From Myxococcales bacterium (lineage in GTDB: Bacteria; Myxococcota_A; Polyangia; Haliangiales; Haliangiaceae): a stretch of 64,000 nt of DNA. Every line of letters starts with the position of its first letter. Within the stretch, counting starts at the first letter, position 1. A program made the translations under genes and the position numbers. Below, one piece after another: positions 37,100 through 38,215 of the stretch. The stretch is taken from contig JAEUJY010000154.1 in assembly GCA_016794525.1 (NCBI GenBank), positions 1 through 64,000 on the forward strand, in the 5' to 3' direction. The notes beneath the pieces are model-generated. The model searched no databases and had not been told where the DNA came from. It was given only the letters and a program-made list of their open reading frames with translations.

Positions 37100-38215
37100 G
37101 TGTCGCCGGTGGAGTTCGCCCGCCAGGTCACCGCGCGCTACGTCGATCCGCTGGCCGAGGTGTGGCTGGCGGCGGCGGCGAAGCTGGGGCTGCGGGTCGA
37201 GCGGCGCCCCGACGCCTACGCGGCGACCGACGGCCGCGGCGCGCTGATCATCGGCACCGACGCCACGCTCGACGCCGACGACTCGGTCGCGCAGATGATC
37301 TTCCACGAGCTGTGCCACGCGCTGGTGCAGGGCGAGGGCGCGTTCACCCAGCCCGACTGGGGCCTCGACAACCAGACCACCCAGCACGCGTGGCGCGAGC
37401 ACGCGACCCTGCGGCTGCAGCGCACGCTGGCGGCGCGCCACGGGCTGACGCGGATGTTCGCGCCGACCACCGACTACCGGATGTTCTGGGACGCGTTGCC
37501 CGCCGATCCGCTGGCCGATCGCGCCGACCCGACGGTGATCGCGGCGATCGCGGCGCTGGGCCGCGCCGATCGCGCGCCGTGGGCGCCGATCCTGACCGCG
37601 GCGCTGACCGCGACCGCGGCGATCGTCAGCGCGACGGCGCCCCACGCCGCGCCCGACTCGCTGGCCGCCGGGTTCGCCGCGCCGGCGCCCCACCCCACCG
37701 GGCTGCCGGCCGGGATCGCCGACGGCCGCACCTGCGGCGGCTGCGCGTGGCGGACGACGCGCGATCACTGCCGGCAGGCGAGCCGCGGCGTCGACGCGGC
37801 GTGGCCGGGCTGCGAGCGCTGGGAGCCGGCGCTCGACTGCCTGACCTGCGGCGCGTGCTGCCGCGAGGCCTACGACGCGGTCGCGGTCAGCCCGCGCGAT
37901 CCGGTGCGGCGCAGCCGGCCCGACTACGTCGTCGATCGCGCGGCGGCCCCCGGCGCGCCGGCGCTGGCGTCCGAGCAGCGCTACCAGCTGCGGCGCGCGC
38001 GCCACCCGGGGCCGACCCCGGAGACGACCGTCGAGCGGTGCGCGGCGCTGGTCGGCGGCGAGCTGGTGCCGTGCGGCGATCACCCCGCGCAGCTGACGAC
38101 GACCCGCGTGCGCTGCGTGATCTACGACGACCGGCCGCGCACCTGCCGCGAGTTCACGCTGGGCAGCGGGCACTGCCTCAGCGCGCGGCGCCGGGTCGGG
38201 CTCAGCCTGGGCTGA
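37100..38215 (+). CDS. HExxH metallopeptidase-like domain fused to a YkgJ-type Cys cluster domain
   Basis: A 371-residue protein from a GTG at 37100. Residues about 60-80 contain a zinc-protease-like helix, VAQMIFHELCHALVQGEGAF, with HELCH as an HExxH motif. The middle is Ala-rich. From residue 210 a Cys-rich half begins: TCGGCAWRTTRDHC, then ALDCLTCGACCREAYDAVAVS, and near the end RCVIYDDRPRTCREFTLGSGHC. The CLTCGACC and CxxY-x-RPxxCREF pattern is that of YkgJ/UPF0153 proteins, proposed to bind zinc or an iron-sulfur cluster. The two halves in one chain are unusual. No signal peptide, so probably cytoplasmic. It overlaps the next convergent gene by 14 bases. Confidence 0.8.
   Translation: MSPVEFARQVTARYVDPLAEVWLAAAAKLGLRVERRPDAYAATDGRGALIIGTDATLDADDSVAQMIFHELCHALVQGEGAFTQPDWGLDNQTTQHAWREHATLRLQRTLAARHGLTRMFAPTTDYRMFWDALPADPLADRADPTVIAAIAALGRADRAPWAPILTAALTATAAIVSATAPHAAPDSLAAGFAAPAPHPTGLPAGIADGRTCGGCAWRTTRDHCRQASRGVDAAWPGCERWEPALDCLTCGACCREAYDAVAVSPRDPVRRSRPDYVVDRAAAPGAPALASEQRYQLRRARHPGPTPETTVERCAALVGGELVPCGDHPAQLTTTRVRCVIYDDRPRTCREFTLGSGHCLSARRRVGLSLG

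Follow-up and report, generated by a model that had tools for sequence, protein, structure and literature searches.

A zincin-like HExxH domain fused to a YkgJ-type cysteine-cluster domain, with remote similarity to the EF-P hydroxylase EpmC

The open reading frame at positions 37100-38215 (+) of the window, the whole stretch of 64,000 nucleotides analysed here, begins with GTG and encodes a protein of 371 residues that carries, in a single frame, two motifs assigned by the original prediction to families usually found apart: FHELCHAL (His69-His73) in the N-terminal half and CLTCGACC (Cys247-Cys254), followed by RPRTCREF, in the C-terminal half. The gene is present as a single copy in the source genome; in a relative, a second copy (G009:C270:1500-2243) is interrupted by two in-frame stops and is probably broken. 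Directly upstream on the same strand lies an enoyl-CoA hydratase/isomerase gene (36100-37041; PF00378, E 9.3e-36). A thioredoxin-like ORF lies on the minus strand (38202-38690; sub-threshold match to Redoxin), and its 3' end and that of the fused gene overlap by 14 bases. The parts of the gene are as follows.

37100..38215, + strand: whole gene, 371 aa, stop included; the same fusion occurs in 56 of 80 loci
37121..37657, + strand: N-terminal zincin-like / EpmC-like domain, residues ~8-186, supported by the N-domain alignment, the AF2 model and VIA-align matches
37304..37318, + strand: putative HELCH metal motif, residues 69-73, on helix 63-77; invariant, helical in the models
37397..37399, + strand: Glu100 on the next long helix, invariant; proposed third metal ligand by analogy with YfcM Glu98
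37733..37813, + strand: first four-cysteine module, C212, C215, C224 and C238, invariant in fused proteins and separate C-genes
37838..38176, + strand: CxxCxxCC (YkgJ-type) core and downstream cysteines, C247, C250, C253, C254, C314, C339, C349 and C359, with PF03692 matches

A match at E <= 0.001 occurs in 39 of 56 related genomes of the source organism's class sample, which is much more than chance would give. A similarity scan of genome contigs yielded 80 loci that were kept, and the open frames were inspected in all of them. HE[LI]CH and CxxCxxCC share one frame at 56 of these loci and the N-half stands alone at 19, so that the halves are far from being separate genes in all relatives, the outcome that would have undone the original prediction. 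Contigs stop short within four further loci (L058, L073, L107, L109), and at the last one (L110:3313-4720) the two halves lie in different frames, through either a frameshift or an assembly error. By record names, the fused form belongs to Myxococcota (Kofleriaceae, Sandaracinaceae, Polyangiaceae), Methylococcaceae and Planctomycetota, and Methylococcus capsulatus has it (L060). A chance origin of the frame, or two genes run together, is ruled out by the relatives, the fused loci and the invariant residues described below. Among the matches listed in open-access literature (titles and the starts of abstracts) there was no description of this fusion; NCBIfam offered no useful family, and PADLOC returned no match, so the reading as a defence system was dropped.

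Residue conservation was examined in 56 aligned fused proteins, namely that of the window and those of 55 of the 56 fused loci (L080 was left out). H69, E70, C72, H73 and E100 are invariant in this alignment, as are twelve cysteines (212, 215, 224, 238, 247, 250, 253, 254, 314, 339, 349 and 359). Two further alignments were hand-chosen from the 80 loci. The five N-terminal residues are still invariant across 51 N-domains (50 plus the window), 18 of which are N-only, and the twelve cysteines are invariant in 32 C-domains (31 plus the window), including those that L101 and L108 encode as separate C-genes. The strict conservation of the catalytic-type Glu70 together with the distant Glu100 suggests an active site.

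The C-domain can be placed with the CxxCxxCC/YkgJ family. All 56 fused members match PF03692 at E <= 1 (best 1.3e-11) and all 32 C-domains at E <= 0.1; the window protein itself scores 18.3 bits, just under the curated cut-off of 23. Like the YkgJ family, the C-domain has a CxxCxxCC core and downstream cysteines; unlike it, the C-domain carries an extra four-cysteine module before the core and is fused to an HExxH domain. Short YkgJ-like proteins encoded in other genomes lack this module, as read off their sequences. With PF03692 matched throughout the 56 fused proteins, and with the structural models described below, the original prediction of an HExxH zincin-like fold joined to a YkgJ/CxxCxxCC domain is supported.

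The pairing of the N- and C-halves is conserved, and the switch between fused and split forms happened more than once: the fused/N-only label needs five changes on the tree of the 51 N-domains, and the starred branches force at least two. (On the same tree, the N-domain of L069, Methyloversatilis universalis by record, clusters with Methylocaldum at 100/96; this perhaps reflects a mislabelled bin or a transfer.) A search with the C-domain profile found a close separate C-half gene in 8 of the 19 N-only genomes (E 8.5e-53 to 7.5e-35). Separate N- and C-genes stand head-to-head at L101 and L108; for the other six genomes the C-gene was not seen within the fetched locus. This pattern of fusion and neighbourhood speaks for a joint function of the two halves in some members of the family. 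The remaining 11 of the 19 gave weaker C-domain matches, the best E in each genome lying between 1.1e-15 and 7.5e-4, and seem to manage without a close C-partner. In six N-only genomes (L168-L173) a common short YkgJ-like protein, which has eight cysteines and the ending CxIY..RGTTCR.F...C, may serve as partner instead.

The fold of the N-domain was approached through predicted structures. The model of the whole window protein has a mean pLDDT of 93.4 and a pTM of 0.90, and the AF2 model of the N-domain alone 92.9 and 0.88, with helices at 63-77 and 94-112. VIA-align match lists for these models consist mostly of zincins, with the HExxH on the active-site helix and a best Z of 6.3; no Z reaches 8, and values of this size may mean a common arrangement. 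For the N-domain model, the closest fold is the metallopeptidase-like domain of ArdC (6sna, 6i89), with Z 6.3 and an rmsd of 4.1 over 125 residues for the top match and Z 5.9 for 6i89. E. coli YfcM, which is EpmC (PF04315), follows at ranks 3-4 (4pdn and 3wtr; Z 5.2; rmsd 4.2 and 4.4; 113 and 117 residues aligned of 139-141), and BepA, at Z 4.1, lies below it. YfcM surfaced in VIA-align of the N-domain alone only; it was absent from VIA-align of the full model and from the Foldseek matches listed for either model, and Foldseek gave no match at E <= 0.001 for the full or the N-domain model. YfcM has five helices and three strands (PMC4231759), and the N-domain model likewise has five main helices and three strands, predicted in the same order. 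The models thus support a zincin-like fold that is compatible with YfcM, and nothing beyond this. As in EpmC/YfcM, an HExxH helix precedes a glutamate on the following helix, and H69, H73 and E100 make up the 2-His-1-carboxylate pattern of a predicted metal site. In YfcM the metal ligands are His59, His63 and Glu98, and their alanine mutants lose hydroxylation of β-lysylated EF-P (PMC4231759).

Profile comparisons point, remotely, in the same direction. The N-half of the window protein has no match in Pfam and its genome no match to PF04315. Weak PF04315 matches occur in 9 of the 51 N-domains and in 11 of the 56 full proteins. The lowest E among the N-domains, 0.0028, belongs to a single protein compared with the whole of Pfam; no member lies above the gathering score, and the gammaproteobacterial carriers G062, G075 and G224 are not among the EpmC-matched genomes. 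We built an EpmC profile from eight EpmC proteins of a Gammaproteobacteria class sample of 185 genomes; its alignment finds YfcM in a solved-structure search, confirming its identity as EpmC. The same kind of search with the fused-protein, N-domain or C-domain alignments gave nothing meaningful. In hhalign, the N-domain and EpmC profiles match with probability 88 and E 2.8e-6 over HExxHWxxAG...D[FW]G. Taken singly, the eight EpmC sequences score 33.8-46.1 against the N-domain profile. The background, 65 unrelated ORFs with HExxH taken from the loci (71 ORFs minus six family members), has a best score of 36.9, for an M48-like protein, and a next one of 25.3; three of the eight exceed the best background ORF and all eight the second best. 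As controls, E. coli SprT (YggI) scores 23.4 and an ArdC-like protein 23.5, and SprT- and ArdC-like probabilities are 3-6%. YgjP-like (55.6) and M48 (47.9) zincins outscore EpmC, both having been chosen as weak extra hits of the N-domain profile. Among the families examined without such selection, EpmC is the nearest, although the kinship is remote.

The N-domain shares with EpmC the stretch HExxHW..AG...D[FWY]G and an occurrence in genomes with the EF-P lysine and EpmA/EpmB. Unlike EpmC, it falls below the Pfam cut-off, has a cysteine inside the motif (HExCH), spaces its putative ligands by 31 rather than 39 residues and is fused to a cysteine-cluster domain. The second-shell acid of EpmC (ligand+7) is replaced in the N-domains by an invariant Gln107, and the conserved GYWYxPDGR loop that joins helices 2 and 3 is missing, only D[FW]G being shared. 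Both Asp105 and this loop are important in YfcM, where the loop is proposed to recognise EF-P (PMC4231759). Given Gln107 in place of the acid and the loss of the loop sequence, we do not file the N-domain as a member of EpmC, but it may work like one.

EF-P and its modification genes were looked for in 35 genomes that carry the N-domain or its partner. These were the window genome and the genomes of 34 of the 80 loci hand-picked for spread, one of which (L109) was included on account of its C-half, on a split contig. EF-P is above cut-off in 34 of the 35, and its KPGKG motif is present in 30 of 30 fetched loci, in four of these in six-frame translation only. EpmA is above cut-off in 26 of the 35 carriers as against 2 of 14 control genomes; a further four (G084-G087) show an EpmA-like match next to both efp and an EpmB-family gene. 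The EpmA match is partial in G072, and four carriers (G067, G077, G078, G082) show none. EpmB-family matches occur in 34 carriers, 14 of them above cut-off. In the source genome, efp adjoins epmA (G000:C18). For comparison, the pathway is found in 26-28% of bacteria (PMC4739656). Within the class sample of the source organism, EpmA is above cut-off in 34 of 39 genomes with a fused-protein match and in 13 of 17 without, about equally common, and the association therefore rests on a few distant lineages. No efp, epmA or epmB gene was found at loci L001-L110, leaving an operon with these genes unsupported. In the Gammaproteobacteria sample, EpmC is above cut-off in 9 of 185 genomes and a strong N-domain occurs in 3, with an overlap of 0 where only ~0.15 would be expected, so that these counts are uninformative on mutual exclusion.

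Based on the above data, we tentatively propose, as a possibility that falls somewhat short of being probable, a two-domain metalloenzyme in which an EpmC-like Fe(II) hydroxylase is fed by a cluster domain and in which EF-P is the likeliest substrate. The N-domain would be a mononuclear non-haem Fe(II) hydroxylase of zincin fold, with His69, His73 and Glu100 as ligands. The C-domain, with its twelve invariant cysteines, would hold an Fe-S or similar cluster and supply the N-domain with electrons (or iron), which would render the enzyme self-contained. Its likeliest substrate would be EF-P β-lysylated at Lys34, on which E. coli EpmC/YfcM also acts. The proposal builds on the observed fusion, the invariant residues, the predicted fold, the remote similarity to EpmC, the EF-P lysine and the presence of EpmA and EpmB, from which we infer the metals, the electron transfer, the hydroxylation and EF-P as substrate. 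The EpmC-like reading is the best-supported function for the N-half, and none of its support is conclusive. Rather doubtful, in our estimate, is the more specific claim that these proteins are EF-P hydroxylases of a new family, self-contained because they bring their own Fe-S electron relay.

The role of the C-domain finds a precedent in FliB, whose CX4CX3CC motif, compared by its authors with PF03692, binds a redox-active, oxygen-sensitive [4Fe-4S] cluster (PMC8598068); unlike FliB, nothing at the fused protein points to methylation. By this analogy, the C-domain may carry a redox cluster and relay electrons to the N-site, with iron delivery as the alternative role. Kobayashi et al. (2014) found the activity of YfcM to be low and inferred further components, perhaps electron donors or a chain (PMC4231759). 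The idea already put forward, that a metal-cluster domain supports its neighbour, is one that we continue to infer, and it gains from the head-to-head split genes and the FliB cluster. The C-domain as the missing partner of EpmC everywhere was considered and rejected: none of the nine EpmC genomes matches the C-domain profile, and any PF03692 match occurs in 4 of the 9, as against 118 of 185 in the Gammaproteobacteria class sample. Nor can the C-domain be regarded as a partner in every case, since 11 of the 19 N-only genomes lack a close C-gene and five of the nine EpmC genomes lack any CxxCxxCC match.

An alternative that we regard as unlikely, though as the strongest of the competing explanations, is a zinc metallopeptidase, a gluzincin of the ArdC, ImmA-IrrE or selecase sort, whose activity is controlled by a cysteine cluster that senses redox state or metal. 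The zincin fold agrees with it, as do the top structural rank of ArdC (Z 6.2-6.3; selecase and PprI score lower) and the SprT-like matches in 18 of the 51 N-domains (best E 0.018). Against this, the EpmC match has a lower best E and extends past HExxH, the SprT and ArdC profile matches are weak, ArdC having no significant one to the N-domain, and no neighbour gene in the cluster list recurs across all lineages. The description "protease-like" given to this domain in the original prediction is supported for the fold only, the nearest functional match being an EF-P hydroxylase that uses the same HExxH and glutamate as its Fe(II) site. We consider, with moderate confidence, a cluster-fed EpmC-like oxygenase to be likelier than a cluster-regulated protease.

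Less probable again is an EpmC-like hydroxylase with the same cluster-fed mechanism that acts on a protein or RNA other than EF-P, such as a ribosomal component. The loss of the EpmC loop proposed for EF-P recognition would fit such a substrate, as would translation-related neighbours in three lineages: an ABC-F-like tandem ABC ATPase (L052:3551-5467), a Leu/Phe-tRNA-protein transferase (L103:5977-6714) and ribosomal protein S2 (L047:4573-5592). These neighbours vary by lineage and may be due to chance, however, and EF-P with the lysine is found in nearly all carriers tested. The idea of a metal-handling protein, in which the CxxCxxCC domain would store or hand on iron or zinc and the HExxH domain would bind metal without catalysis or act as a chaperone, agrees with the Pfam description of PF03692 as only a putative zinc- or iron-chelating domain but is improbable given the strict conservation of Glu70 and Glu100.

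If the proposed cluster-fed EF-P hydroxylase is correct, Myxococcota, methanotrophs and Planctomycetota would have a second way to finish the β-lysine modification. Since the contribution of EpmC hydroxylation to the function of E. coli EF-P is stated to be negligible (PMC6544042), a weaker phenotype would be expected on deletion of the gene. More generally, a genome call of "HExxH protease" may hide an oxygenase. The enzyme would also show the kind of electron donor that the chemistry of EF-P hydroxylation needs. The reductant for YfcM hydroxylation was unknown to the 2014 authors, and the natural fusion, together with the neighbouring halves, makes this question testable in cultured Methylococcus capsulatus.
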